In this document: piece by piece, positions 1,055 to 51,714 of the stretch | How positions within the stretch are numbered: position 1 is the stretch's first letter | Layout of the letters: each line of letters starts with the position of its first letter | NCBI GenBank assembly: GCA_014239575.1 | Contig: JAAZYQ010000003.1 | Coordinates: 1-63,012, forward strand | Length of the DNA: 63,012 nt | From: Gammaproteobacteria bacterium | GTDB lineage: Bacteria > Pseudomonadota > Gammaproteobacteria > Arenicellales > UBA868 | Reading direction: 5' to 3' | The notes under the pieces: model-generated | The model's input: only the letters and a program-made list of their open reading frames with translations | Databases searched by the model: none | What the model was told of the DNA's origin: nothing | Translations under genes and position numbers: made by a program

Positions 1055-1095
1055 ATCAGCAATAACTCTCAGAACCCTCTTCTTTGATAGCCAAA

Positions 1096-1126
1096 AAAGA
1101 AGGGCGCCGGCAGGGCGCCCTTCTTT
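1096..1126 (-). terminator. Rho-independent terminator after comEA-like gene
   Basis: A perfect 13-bp inverted repeat (AAAGAAGGGCGCC at 1096-1108 and its complement at 1114-1126) encloses a 5-nt loop. Read on the minus strand the 3' arm runs into a T-rich tract, so it ends transcription from the comEA-like gene before ugd. Confidence 0.85.
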
Positions 1127-1146
1127 AAAACCAATGGTAGATTTTA

Positions 1147-47373: not shown

Positions 47374-47390
47374 CACTCCCACTCAGTAGT
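47374..47390 (+). repeat. att-like core, copy 1 (distal)
   Basis: CACTCCCACTCAGTAGT, one mismatch from the last 17 bp of the guaA coding sequence (50114-50130) and identical to copy 2. Similarity to copy 2 continues rightwards for about 40 bp (ATTRCAGTTNTAACTARTTR). Confidence 0.8.
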
Positions 47391-47419
47391 ATTGCAGTTG
47401 TAACTAATTAATATCATCA

Positions 47420-47599
47420 GTGTATTTTAGACTTCGTCGTCATTTTCTAGGACCGTCGCCAGCCGTTGTTCTGAACGATTACGCTTTACCGATTGCTGAA
47501 CGATTGTGGAATGACTTAACTATTATAAAGACGCTGTTCCATACAACTAGCAAGGCTCTGATTACAGAGGCCTGTATTGACCTAGTTAAGAAGAAATAA
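47420..47599 (+). CDS. Short unrecognised ORF (59 aa)
   Basis: An open frame with a GTG start encodes 59 residues starting YFRLRRHFLGPSPAVV after the initiator and ending with a basic DLVKKK tail. No ribosome-binding site is visible and I recognise no family. It could be a decayed gene fragment or chance; it is listed because it is the longest plus-strand frame in this part of element A. Confidence 0.2.
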   Translation: MYFRLRRHFLGPSPAVVLNDYALPIAERLWNDLTIIKTLFHTTSKALITEACIDLVKKK

Positions 47600-47713
47600 A
47601 TGGAGTTACCACAGTTAAGAAAAGCCAGAGTATCTATTCATACAGCGATGGCGAATAGATAAATAGTAGTGCCGTTTCTTTTGTCTACCTGACCACTACA
47701 CTTTCACATAAAC

Positions 47714-47742
47714 AAAAAGGGGATCATTACGATCCCCTTTTT
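47714..47742 (-). terminator. Terminator after the four-helix protein gene
   Basis: Perfect 12-bp stem (AAAAAGGGGATC and complement) with loop ATTAC. The A/T arms make it work in both directions. It is followed on the plus strand by a 25-bp tag (47743-47767) that recurs after the related hairpin at 48225-48253. Confidence 0.85.
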
Positions 47743-47768
47743 GTTTGACTATCTGACTACCTTCTTTA

Positions 47769-48152
47769 TTAGCTTAGTTTCGTCCGTGACCAGAAACTAA
47801 GTATTGCAATTGCTCCTGTGGCTATCACTGGCGGCACGGGCAACGGAAGACCACGAAGGGGACCTTCCATTAAAATTATGACAGCACACATCACAGCGAA
47901 ACCGATAGCAACACCCAAAAGCATTTCTTTTTGGTTATCCACTTTCTCAACTTTTCTGGATTGAAATAAAAGACACACAACAATGAATAACATACCGGCC
48001 ATAATGTATCGTTGAGTTACTCCAATTTCCAGACCTAACCCTTCGGCACCAGGGTACGCCTGTAAAATAAAAAACTGCGGTACAACGGCAAAAGCAATCA
48101 AAAATATTAGAGGCACTATTGCTGCTATAGACATCATTATTTTATATGGCAT
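47769..48152 (-). CDS. Hypothetical four-helix membrane protein, island cargo
   Basis: A 127-residue protein with four hydrophobic segments (about 5-28, 48-63, 78-95, 104-121) and no motif I recognise. A basic/acidic loop (QSRKVEKVDNQKE) separates helices 2 and 3. The ATG at 48152 has AAGGAG about 6 nt upstream, and a strong terminator follows the stop, so it looks like an intact single-gene unit. Its AT-rich DNA differs from the flanking housekeeping genes. Function unknown. Confidence 0.7.
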   Translation of the reverse strand: MPYKIMMSIAAIVPLIFLIAFAVVPQFFILQAYPGAEGLGLEIGVTQRYIMAGMLFIVVCLLFQSRKVEKVDNQKEMLLGVAIGFAVMCAVIILMEGPLRGLPLPVPPVIATGAIAILSFWSRTKLS

Positions 48153-48224
48153 ATAAACTCCTTAATGATTGTTGAGGATGATGATTGATTTTATCTGATT
48201 ATTCATTTCTCCATCATACACAGT

Positions 48225-48253
48225 AAGAGGGGGATCATTACGACCCCCCTCTT
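48225..48253 (-). terminator. Second hairpin, related to 47714-47742
   Basis: AAGAGGGGG pairs with CCCCCTCTT around an ATCATTACGA-like core, giving a stem with one mismatch. Together with the 25-bp tag at 48254-48278 it repeats the layout at 47714-47767. No gene ends just before it on the minus strand, so it may mark a lost gene. Confidence 0.6.
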
Positions 48254-48278
48254 GTTTAACTTTCTGACTACCTTCTTT

Positions 48279-48552
48279 TTCGTGTCACTTGGATTTGATG
48301 TAGTCTTGTAAACGAAAACACAGTGGTCGTGTGTTATTCATACTTGTAATACCCCAGGACTTCCAATGGTCCTCTTCGCATAATATTACAGGGGTTTTCG
48401 AGTACAAGTAATCACTATGTACCCTGATCCACCAGACCTAAGATCAAGCATCCAAACGCTAAAGTACAAAATAAGTCGGGCCTGACTTATTTTAGGGTGA
48501 ATCGATATCGGGGGTACCTGAGTAATCAGGCCCTATCACCAAGCAGCTTGCC
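48279..48552 (+). other. Gene-free part of element A with a hairpin
   Basis: No reading frame of note. A 10-bp perfect hairpin (AAAATAAGTC, loop GGGCCT, complement) at 48468-48493 looks like a bidirectional terminator. Together with the gap before it, this makes an 834-bp stretch between the genes at 48152 and 48987 without a recognisable gene. Confidence 0.5.
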
Positions 48553-48745
48553 AAAACTTTGTAGTCAACAATTGATTTAGAGTAATCGTGTCCACTTTGT
48601 AGTCATGTTTGTATTTGAAAAGCGTATGTTATTGATATTCTTACGTTTAATTTTGTAGACTATTCAAATCTAGTGATAAAAATATACAATATTCCCCTTT
48701 ATAATCAATAACTTAGGAACTATAGGGCCACTCCCACTCAGTAGT
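48553..48745 (+). repeat. 193-bp direct repeat, copy at the element A/B junction
   Basis: Aligned by eye with 49938-50130: same length, about 19 differences including small compensating gaps, roughly 90% identity, with about 59 identical bases from TATGTTATTG onwards. It ends in the core CACTCCCACTCAGTAGT (48729-48745) and carries TTTGTAG at 48558, 48596 and 48652. Confidence 0.9.
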
Positions 48746-48986
48746 ATTACAGTTTTAACTAGTTGATATCATTACTTTTTTAAATACTTTGTAGAGAGTT
48801 TGTAGAACTTATCATCGGTTTATACAATTTTTTTAGGACCAAGAACTTACCTAAGTATCTGATTACACATCATTTGTAGTAAATGATCATCACCTGGAAA
48901 TATTCAGTTTGTAGAATATTCATAGGATTGTTACTAGGTGTGATCCTGGACAGAGCGTCGGTTGCAAATAGAGGAATGATGAATTG

Positions 48987-49220
48987 TTAAAGAGTTTCTA
49001 ACCCGTCTGTACCGTATCTACTTTTACACGTTCCACATTCAACAAATTCTTCCCTTCCCTCATTATTCGCTGTGGGCAGAATTGGAATAAAAAACAGCGT
49101 GAACCATTCTCGAAGACTGATTACCTCGTAGTCTTTTCCCACTCCACACTTTGGACAGATAAATTGTCCCAGCTGTTCAACTCTTCGTCTGTCTGTAGTA
49201 CCAAATAACATTAAGAGCAT
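48987..49220 (-). CDS. Zinc-ribbon protein, island cargo
   Basis: A 77-residue protein with two CxxC pairs (ICPKCGVG and ECGTCKSRYG) around a hydrophobic aromatic segment REWFTLFFIPILPT. This layout matches the small zinc-ribbon family (zinc_ribbon_15-like) found in many phyla, with unknown function. The start could be the ATG at 49220 or the one at 49211; neither has a clear ribosome-binding site. It is followed after 49 bp upstream-wise by the DUF2306-like gene, possibly one transcript. Confidence 0.7.
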   Translation of the reverse strand: MLLMLFGTTDRRRVEQLGQFICPKCGVGKDYEVISLREWFTLFFIPILPTANNEGREEFVECGTCKSRYGTDGLETL

Positions 49221-49269
49221 TCTTGGAAGGAACCTTAGTTCACCTGGATAAAATCCAGAGTCTGGTCAA

Positions 49270-49899
49270 TTAGTAATCACTTTGTGAATTACCTACTTTC
49301 CTAACCCACCAAAAAATACCCGGGACTATTAATGCCGTTGGCAATACCCACCAAACCCATTCAGGATCAGAAGGAGGATTAACAACTAAAACCGCAGTTA
49401 CAACTGCTATTGTTCCACCCATCATATTCGTTAAGTGTTTCTCTATTCTTTCTTTTCCCGTAGCTGTTTTATTTCTATAAGTTCTAAAATTGTTATACCC
49501 CAAACTAATTGCTAAAAACCCAAAGACAAGAAGAACAATATATTGTGAATTTTCATTCATGAAATAATTTATAGACAGTATCCACATCCCTACTCCTGAG
49601 AAAACCATTAACCCAACAGCGATCCAGTCAAGAGGTGCAGCAATACCTGCCCTATTTCTCCCAAATCGCATACCTGAAAAAGCAAGATAGAAAGAAAAGA
49701 TAGCTACAAAAAACAAAAAGATGTTCTCATTAATAATTGACATCGGAATAGCTGTAATAAATATTCCCAACATTGCCCAAAAGAATATCTTGCCTGAAAG
49801 GATATGACGATTTTTCCCCTTCTTAAATGAAAGTGCTGAAACAGCAGAAGCGAGAGCAATTACTCCTGAGATAATATGGATTGGTAATAGAATTTGCAT
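49270..49899 (-). CDS. DUF2306-like predicted membrane protein, island cargo
   Basis: A 209-residue protein with about seven hydrophobic segments. The N-terminal LLPIHIISGVIALASAVSAL followed by KKGKNRHILSGKIFFWAM fits the DUF2306 pattern, in which paired histidines sit on early helices; the fit is by eye. I use the ATG at 49899; the frame opens four codons earlier at a TTG. The codons are AT-rich, unlike the neighbouring guaA. Function is unknown; a heme- or metal-linked membrane role is only a guess from the histidines. Confidence 0.7.
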   Translation of the reverse strand: MQILLPIHIISGVIALASAVSALSFKKGKNRHILSGKIFFWAMLGIFITAIPMSIINENIFLFFVAIFSFYLAFSGMRFGRNRAGIAAPLDWIAVGLMVFSGVGMWILSINYFMNENSQYIVLLVFGFLAISLGYNNFRTYRNKTATGKERIEKHLTNMMGGTIAVVTAVLVVNPPSDPEWVWWVLPTALIVPGIFWWVRKVGNSQSDY

Positions 49900-49937
49900 G
49901 ATCTTTTGCAATATCCCAAATTGATACGACCTGATCT

Positions 49938-50130
49938 AAAACTTTGTAGACAACTACTGATTTAGAGTAATCGTGTCTACTTTGTAGAAAGTCTGTAGTA
50001 GAAAATCGTATGTTATTGATATTCTTACGTTTAATTTTGTAGACTATTCAAATCTAGTGATAAAAAATATACAATATTTCCCTTTATAATCAATAACTTA
50101 GAAATTATAGGGTCACTCCCACTCAATAGT
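49938..50130 (+). repeat. 193-bp direct repeat, guaA-proximal copy
   Basis: Partner of 48553-48745. TTTGTAG occurs at 49943, 49981 and 50036 with a near-match TCTGTAG at 49992, 11 bp after 49981. The final 17 bp (50114-50130) lie inside guaA and encode its C-terminal TIEWE plus stop, so this copy overlaps the coding sequence. Confidence 0.9.
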
Positions 50131-51714
50131 TGCTGGGGGCTTTCCTGAAATATCGTAGGTCACACGGCTGATGCCACGGACCTCGTTGATGATGCGAGTG
50201 GAGATATGTCCAAGAACCTCATAGGGAATCTGTTTCCAGTTGGCTGTCATGAAATCGACCGTTTCGACCGCCCGCAGAGCGATCACATACTCATAGGCCC
50301 GGTTATCGCCGACTACCCCAACTGATCGAACTGGCAGAAACACGGCAAAGGCCTGACTGATTTCATCGTAAAGATTGTTGCGGTGCAATTCTTCCAGATA
50401 AATGGCATCCGCCTGGCGCAGGATATCGGCGTACTCCTTGCGGACTTCGCCGAGAATACGCACCCCAAGGCCTGGACCTGGAAACGGGTGCCGGAGAACG
50501 AGTTCCCGAGGCAATCCCAATTCGATCCCAATACGACGTACCTCGTCTTTAAATAACTCCTTCAAAGGCTCCAAAAGGGACAGGTGCAACGATTCGGGCA
50601 GTCCACCCACATTGTGGTGCGATTTAATGACTTTGGCTTTCCCGGATTTGGCACCAGCTGATTCGATCACATCCGGGTAAATGGTTCCCTGAGCTAACCA
50701 TCGGGCACCGGCTATCTTCTTTGCTTCATCCTGGAAAACATCTACAAATATCCGGCCAATGATCTTGCGCTTTTGTTCAGGATCTGCCACGCCGTAAAGC
50801 GCATCAAGGAAGCGAGCCTCTGCATCAATGCGAATTACCCGCACGCCAAGATGCTTGGCAAAGGTGGCCATTACCTCATTACCCTCATTCAGGCGTAACA
50901 AACCGTTATCGACGAATATGCAGGTCAATTGATCGCCGATGGCGCGATGCAATAACGCCGCAACCACCGAGGAATCGACTCCGCCCGAAAGACCGAGTAT
51001 TACCTGATCTGCACCTACCTGGGTACGCACATCCTCGGTAATAGTGTGAATAATATTTTCCGGGGTCCACTGAGCCGAACACGCGCAGATCTGCCGAACA
51101 AAACGAGACAAAATCTCTCGCCCCTGAACGGTATGGGTCACCTCGGGGTGAAACTGCAGACCGTAAAACCGGCGCCGTTCATCAGCGATAGCCGCAAACG
51201 GAGCGTTGGGGCTTGATGCCATCACAGAAAATCCTGCTGGCAAACGGGTGACTCTATCGCCGTGGCTCATCCACACCTCTAGAGTCGAATCAAGGGTAGT
51301 TTCATCGGCACGCAGGTCACACAACAAACCAGGTGTTGATGAAGGGGTAATACCGGCGAAACCATATTCGCGGTGATCGGCGGTCTGGACTGCACCCCCC
51401 AACTGCGTCGCCATGGCCTGCATGCCATAACAGATTCCCAGCAGTGGACGGTCCCAATCGAATAGCTCAGGCGGTGCGCGATCAGTCGTTTCTTCGGTAA
51501 CCGTATCGGGGCCGCCCGACAGAATCACCCCCGCAGGGTTAAAGGCCCGAATCTGCGAAAACGGCATTTCACATGAATGAATCTCACAGTAGACACCAGC
51601 CTCACGAATGGAGCGGCCAATCAGTTGGGTGTACTGCGATCCAAAATCGAGAATCAGAATCCGCTCGGCATGCGGATCCCGCGCACCGGCCGCCGCTCCC
51701 TCAGCCGCTGCCAA
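50113..51714 (-). CDS. guaA: GMP synthase (glutamine-hydrolysing)
   Basis: Aminates XMP to GMP using glutamine and ATP. The 533 residues comprise a class I glutamine amidotransferase domain (nucleophile in [17 protein letters not shown]), an ATP pyrophosphatase domain ([15 protein letters not shown]) and the C-terminal dimerisation domain ending TIEWE. It starts with TTG two bases after the guaB stop; no better start lies before [17 protein letters not shown]. Its last 17 bp are the att-like core shared with the downstream island. Confidence 0.97.

Follow-up and report, generated by a model that had tools for sequence, protein, structure and literature searches.

The guaA site of the genomic island GIsul2 is given as 5′-GAGTGGGA-3′ at the guaA 3′ end (PMC9376610). 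Cis-mobilizable elements (CIMEs) are described in connection with tandem accretion (PMC5704250), and the account of the tandem islands at ssrA in Dehalococcoides counts 15 without an integration module (PMC3146451). The locus analyzed here lies on the minus strand of a 63,012-nt stretch of gammaproteobacterial DNA, which we refer to as a whole as the window, and it can be set beside each of these systems. As described for GIsul2, three att sites stand in a row, and the same GAGTGGGA site lies within the core repeat; however, GIsul2 is described as an element of ~15 kb with several genes and an integrase of its own (PMC9376610), whereas the islets in the window have no integrase. Like CIMEs, as presented in PMC5704250, the islets are units bounded by core repeats and arms, lack an integrase, and are arranged in tandem at one target gene, but they measure only 1.36 and 1.39 kb (with counterparts of 0.74 kb in genome G028 and 0.76 kb in G010), and hold one or two genes each. 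The Dehalococcoides islands share the tandem arrangement at one gene end but differ in their target, ssrA, and in the use of a serine recombinase (PMC3146451), sizes not being part of this comparison. One-gene guaA islets were unreported among the matches listed in our literature search, which also gave no report on duplicated terminators in islands.

The borders are marked by three copies of the core repeat GAGTGGGAGTG, all on the minus strand: one at the outer end of islet 1 (47374 to 47390), one between islets 1 and 2 (48729 to 48745), and one within the 3′ end of guaA (50114 to 50130). They bound an outer unit of 1355 bp, which contains both hairpin copies discussed below, and a second unit of 1385 bp. 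The integration target, guaA (50113 to 51714, minus strand), encodes GMP synthase (PF00958, E 5.8e-43) and has the same gene end in 22 genomes. Beside the cores lie conserved minus-strand end arms (48553 to 48728 in islet 1 and 49938 to 50113 in islet 2) that are 91% alike over 193 nt and carry TTTGTAG sites. This motif or its complement, CTACAAA, occurs 11 times in the 2757 bp of the islets (shuffle mean, 0.6; maximum, 4) versus 6 times in the other 60,255 bp of the window, and the repeats look like candidate integrase-arm sites. The GC content is 33 to 40% inside the islets, 42% and 47% in two border-straddling intervals, and 50 to 59% further out. No recombination or transfer genes were found inside the islets among ORFs of 60 aa or more; the six PF00589 matches in the genome to which the window belongs are all on other contigs. 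Islet 2 carries two minus-strand genes, one for a zinc-ribbon protein (PF17032; 48987 to 49220), after which no tag or hairpin was found, and one for a 213-aa protein, by eye a membrane protein (49270 to 49911), with a weak, below-cutoff resemblance to TauE. The latter gene has an 83% DNA match at the guaA of a genome of another genus, G008, and this match includes the guaA arm.

Elsewhere, the guaA end of G012 is followed by similar TTACAAAG repeats and then by a serine-recombinase-like ORF and a tyrosine integrase; TTACAAAGTAGTTACAAAG and TTTGTAG lie beside this integrase-bearing island, with a predicted role as arm sites. A G012-type integrase had no match at an E value of ≤1e-10 in the window's own genome, which is incomplete (77%), and is present in 3 of the 33 genomes of the family, G012 included. 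At least one further core was found near 4 of the 22 guaA ends in the stretches, of unequal length, fetched from the 33 family genomes. The window has two extra cores, and G024 has one, in a decayed guaA fragment 4 kb off; in G010 the extra core is 760 bp off with one GST gene between, and in G028 it is 738 bp off with one isochorismatase-domain gene between, which is followed, by eye, by a different hairpin. Mini-islets of 0.74 to 1.39 kb, in which guaA-type cores enclose one or two genes and no integrase, can be seen in two genera (g1 and g4) of one family (window 47374 to 50130, L045 7737 to 8510, and L099 2309 to 3047). A palindrome, AAAATAAGTC..GACTTATTTT, is 83% alike together with its flanks between window positions 48423 to 48523 and L045 8511 to 8610, in guaA islets of two genera. 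The guaA island of G024, which carries a PLD-domain protein, has a decayed copy of the guaA 3′ end as its outer border (L041 3275 to 3400).

Islet 1 contains a 54-nt direct repeat, at 47714 to 47767 (copy 1) and 48225 to 48278 (copy 2), with 87% identity and a spacing of 511 nt. An earlier, sequence-only reading of this DNA had placed hairpins at 47714 to 47742 and 48225 to 48253 and adjoining tags from 47743 and 48254 and had noted that the tag comes before the hairpin on the minus strand, all of which was borne out. Read 5′ to 3′ on that strand, each copy consists of a 25-nt tag (47743 to 47767 and 48254 to 48278) and then a 12-bp stem with the loop GUAAU. A degenerate pattern for the tag, with up to three mismatches allowed, hits two sites in the whole window (mean of 0.00 in 100 shuffles), and the minus-strand folds of copies 1 and 2 have z-scores of −4.83 and −3.74, with 0 of 200 shuffles as good. 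Nine of the 12 stem pairs are identical. The stem differences had been taken to compensate each other, and this is so for two of the three (A-U to G-C); the third changes A-U to G-U on the minus strand and is an A/C mismatch when read on the plus strand. Pairing is thus preserved only on the minus strand, the strand of both adjoining ORFs, and the third change therefore fits a minus-strand RNA. With two sequences, the compensatory changes do not constitute statistical covariation (125 of 500 shuffles were as good), and palindromes are also correctable by template switching.

The similarity between the copies ends at the edges of the module, the flanks outside the 54 nt being no more similar than in shuffled sequence (393 and 379 of 500 shuffles did equally well). 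These dissimilar flanks give no sign of a larger tandem duplication, and the gene end at copy 2 may or may not have originated as a duplicate of the end of the gene at copy 1. A weak third tag-like stretch (47679 to 47697, minus strand; 14 of 19 matches) lies beyond hairpin copy 1 as seen from its tag; among 500 shuffled islets, 12 equaled it, so that it is only suggestive of a tag on both sides of the hairpin.

Copy 1 stands at the end of a gene for a 127-aa protein (47769 to 48152, minus strand) that appears by eye from its translation to be a membrane protein. The tag begins 1 nt past the stop codon, in agreement with the earlier statement that copy 1 closes a membrane-protein gene, and forms part of the 3′ untranslated region (UTR). 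Including the window's own genome, 8 of 109 genomes of the order have a match to the protein (E ≤ 1e-5), which matched no Pfam or NCBIfam family above the cutoff and no PHROG at an E value of ≤0.001. A stable G+C-rich hairpin behind the stop codon of an ORF is present, by fold and position, in both copies, and with its small loop this arrangement directly past a stop codon resembles an intrinsic (Rho-independent) terminator; copy 1 has, in addition, an A-tract before the stem and a U-tract, UUUUUGUUU, after it. The module differs from such a terminator in the 25-nt tag kept between the copies and in the loss from copy 2 of most of the U-tract. We scored the tails by the usual T-tail sum (an eight-T tail scores 5.13) and obtained 4.76 for copy 1 and 2.11 for copy 2 on the minus strand and 4.63 and 2.56, respectively, on the plus strand. 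Copy 1, with a good U-rich tail directly after its stem, should thus terminate in both directions, and copy 2, with a weak one, should do so poorly. A terminator scan of the window listed neither hairpin, probably since it counts the A/U pairs into the stem.

The same gene is found in a relative, G024, where the gene, the 26 nt 5′ of its start codon (48153 to 48178 in the window, minus strand), and the tag are 94% identical to window positions 47731 to 48178; the homology ends with the 26-nt flank. The hairpin of G024 is interrupted halfway, so that no such terminator exists there, although this genome is a metagenome-assembled genome (MAG) and the broken hairpin may be an assembly effect of a chimeric contig. 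The G024 locus is unlike the guaA site, the gene and tag adjoining a class-III aminotransferase gene. On contig C44 of G010, a homologous gene is matched over its 3′ part (81%) and ends without the tag. The window's own genome contains a second, decayed relative of the 127-aa gene on contig C317 (L066 1332 to 1720), with an in-frame TGA and, by eye, no tag.

Copy 2 had been described as having no gene before it. This description is incomplete: an 18-codon ORF (MNNTRPLCFRLQDYIKSK*; 48341 to 48285, minus strand) ends 6 nt before its tag, and the start of this ORF is homologous to the starts of other ORFs. The shared segment, or leader (48310 to 48397, minus strand), comprises a 5′ UTR and the first codons and matches G032:C29 (80%, E 1.1e-14), G006:C28 (83%, E 7.5e-14), and G006:C5 (81%, E 3.7e-8); G032 has another copy that can be aligned, the fourth (L048 7870 to 7916), and a wider query (48255 to 48545) found matches in 6 of the 33 family genomes, the window's own included (E ≤ 0.1). 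At all of these places the start codon is at an equal distance from the leader and the N termini are hydrophobic (signal-peptide-like by eye). The ORFs so opened are 32 codons long in G006:C28 (MNRTRPLFLFCFLVLASLF...) and at one place in G032 (MNRTRSLFLVCFF...), 51 codons in G006:C5, and 246 codons, encoding by eye a pentapeptide-like repeat protein, at the second place in G032; none of the four is as short as the window ORF. Past the shared first codons the latter has a loose likeness to G006 (25 of 1,000 shuffles as good) and is probably a shortened signal-peptide-like ORF. As an observation in its own right, the leader segment precedes a variety of ORFs across three genera, and most of its copies contain a GGAC...GTCC hairpin (window 48310 to 48397, L048 6757 to 6843 and 7870 to 7916, L050 16477 to 16547, and L051 657 to 713).

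Since copy 2 follows an ORF whose start matches ORF starts in two other genera, it probably closes a shortened gene; the unit that ends at copy 2 probably had the same kind of beginning as these leader-borne genes. The idea that it simply closes a collapsed long gene is weakened by the finding that two of the four leader-borne ORFs elsewhere have only 32 codons. In both of these, the terminal TGA overlaps, in another frame, the start of a longer ORF that by eye encodes a repeat protein (188 and 280 aa). A short ORF need therefore not be a ruin, and the gene following it may be what was lost; the missing part would probably be the remainder of the signal-peptide ORF, a gene that came next, or the two together.

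On balance, we favor the interpretation that the repeat marks the ends of two genes, which share a 3′ module and lie together in a CIME-like islet at guaA that has no integrase, and that coding sequence was lost before copy 2. The module would be a minus-strand gene 3′ end composed of a short 3′ UTR tag and an intrinsic-terminator-like hairpin. Downstream, copy 1 would end transcription of the intact 127-aa membrane gene. Upstream, copy 2 would have closed another cargo unit, of whose coding part most would since have disappeared, so that the leader, 18 codons, and the hairpin are what is left; copy 2 may now at most partly insulate the 127-aa gene from read-through. The islet itself would have been inserted by a guaA-type integrase acting in trans. 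Of the readings offered earlier, that of a remnant of an older fused unit fits best, in that the short ORF closed by copy 2 has a gene start borrowed from elsewhere, although the flanks give no sign of a larger duplication.

The arrangement of leader, ORF, hairpin, ribosome binding site, and gene could instead be that of a leader RNA or attenuator, with a single transcript beginning in the conserved leader, in which an 18-aa leader peptide is followed by hairpin 2, regulating read-through into the 127-aa gene, and by hairpin 1 as the end. The order of the elements suits this idea, as do the survival of the copy 2 stem despite the decay of its U-tract, the present location of copy 2 72 nt upstream of the start codon of the 127-aa gene, the 251-nt leader fold, which is somewhat better than expected by chance (z = −2.62; equaled by 3 of 200 shuffles), and the 32-codon ORFs overlapping a longer ORF in G006:C28 and G032, which show that short leader ORFs exist in the family. 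Against this, two of the other leader copies stand before ORFs of 51 and 246 codons, and the window ORF is shorter than any of its counterparts and only loosely like them past the first codons. Moreover, we saw no run of regulatory codons by eye and, in a nonexhaustive look, no clear antiterminator in the fold, and Rfam gave a single subthreshold match (a leu-phe leader, E 0.74) on the plus strand. We regard attenuation as unlikely. A small noncoding RNA from copy 2 or from both copies would be aided by the promoter-like character of the leader, in which a −10-like GTARTATT is seen by eye in five of five aligned copies, ~150 nt before hairpin 2. Such an RNA is nonetheless very improbable in our judgment, given that no Rfam family scored above threshold, that the tagged copies seen all come from one genus, and that the ORF start 5′ of copy 2 has homologs among the starts of other ORFs.

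The remaining alternatives turn on how widely the module recurs. If the tag-hairpin were a cassette end active in moving gene-plus-terminator units between islands, it should be met behind other cargo, and the presence of the gene with its 26-nt 5′ flank and tag at an unrelated place in G024, with homology stopping at or near both borders, would speak for it. A covariance model built from both copies (R1) had matches in 8 of 109 genomes of the order (E ≤ 0.05), with a convincing tag only in the window's own genome and in G024. No further tagged copy besides the two was found in the own genome, a 378-contig MAG; outside the window these searches gave one convincing tagged copy, that at the end of the corresponding gene of G024, and the pair otherwise comes close to a one-off local duplication. 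A near-exact tag pattern hit one record among 84,980 species genomes (a set that leaves out contigs shorter than 3,000 bases and perhaps also the window's own genome), the gammaproteobacterial MAG contig JAAZZE010000077.1, which corresponds to G024:C210. Viral contigs had no match to the tag pattern or to the 127-aa protein, and phage and plasmid collections had none to the islet DNA, it being understood that these three collections may omit sequences from the genome of the window itself or from its very close relatives. By covariance search, the guaA stretches of window islet 2, G024:C77, G010:C133, G008, and G028 contained no tag-hairpin, and the other fetched leader-bearing loci contained none at a convincing score. 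The earlier proposal of a conserved 3′ cassette end is thus unsupported, since the neighboring islet (48729 to 50114) and the guaA islets of G024, G010, G028, and G008 have different cargo genes and lack the tag and the homologous gene in G010 ends without it. Integron attC sites have the core motifs RYYYAAC and GTTRRRY; the candidates at copy 1 (GTCAAAC and GTTTATG) and copy 2 (GTTAAAC and none) do not fit this consensus. We strongly doubt an active cassette end. A mobile palindrome of the REP or MITE type that came by chance to lie after two ORFs would agree with a palindrome inside a sharp-edged repeat with unrelated flanks, but two tagged copies in the own genome (77% complete) and one in a relative do not make a dispersed family, and we consider this scarcely credible.

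The other R1 matches were set aside individually. Those in G005, G015, and G017 cover only model positions 17 or 21 to 57, that is, the hairpin without most of the tag, and that in G051 has a 10-nt gap in the tag; all were judged to be unrelated terminators. In G103 (37.9 bits, versus 35.4 for G024) and G104 the tag aligned at poor identity, and the hits are A/U-flanked terminators with a different loop and other adjoining ORFs; these two we likewise take to be unrelated terminators, although G103 may yet be distantly akin. A further match in the own genome, at window positions 1086 to 1127, is a hairpin of terminator type that lacks the greater part of the tag. Running R1 on the window plus 17 fetched loci and then on 15 more (no match at an E value of ≤1 in the latter) added nothing certain. 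A candidate in G010:C19 (L056 6967 to 7026; 20.4 bits, E 0.059) has the same loop and “TTTGACT” but was left as an unproven family member because the opposite strand gives the better-paired stem and another inverted repeat flanks it. The same contig has an array-like arrangement in which a repeated stretch, CCGAACTTTCTCGCTAAATC, and variants of it (by eye) lie between small ORFs (L056 5464, 5960, and 7118).

The hairpin pair alone is ordinary, two gene ends with a common terminator, and the guaA mini-islets are the more interesting context, showing how small the cargo of guaA integration can get; islets may keep gene ends while losing genes. One could imagine that guaA in this bacterial family is a landing pad for mini-cassettes (0.74 to 1.39 kb, one or two genes, own gene ends, no integrase), which would be inserted tandemly in the orientation of guaA by an integrase in trans and would trade genes together with their terminators with other islands. 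The duplicated tag-hairpin would then be the scar of one such exchange, followed by the loss of the first gene. This picture is quite unlikely. If the mini-islets do prove to move in trans, guaA would act as a capture site much like an integron but with no integrase of its own in residence.

In G024, an insertion replaces the 5′ part of a conserved intergenic element. This element, which consists of the ~150 nt before CAATCACGACGCCCC and has a terminator-like hairpin at its end, was seen in 13 genomes of genus g1 besides G024 (L103 to L105, L107 to L115, and L118). It had no Rfam match in six loci and no tRNA or tmRNA in 13 loci, and it may represent either a small coding sequence (MSSDSGIVTVSFGV...) or an RNA that has yet to be named.
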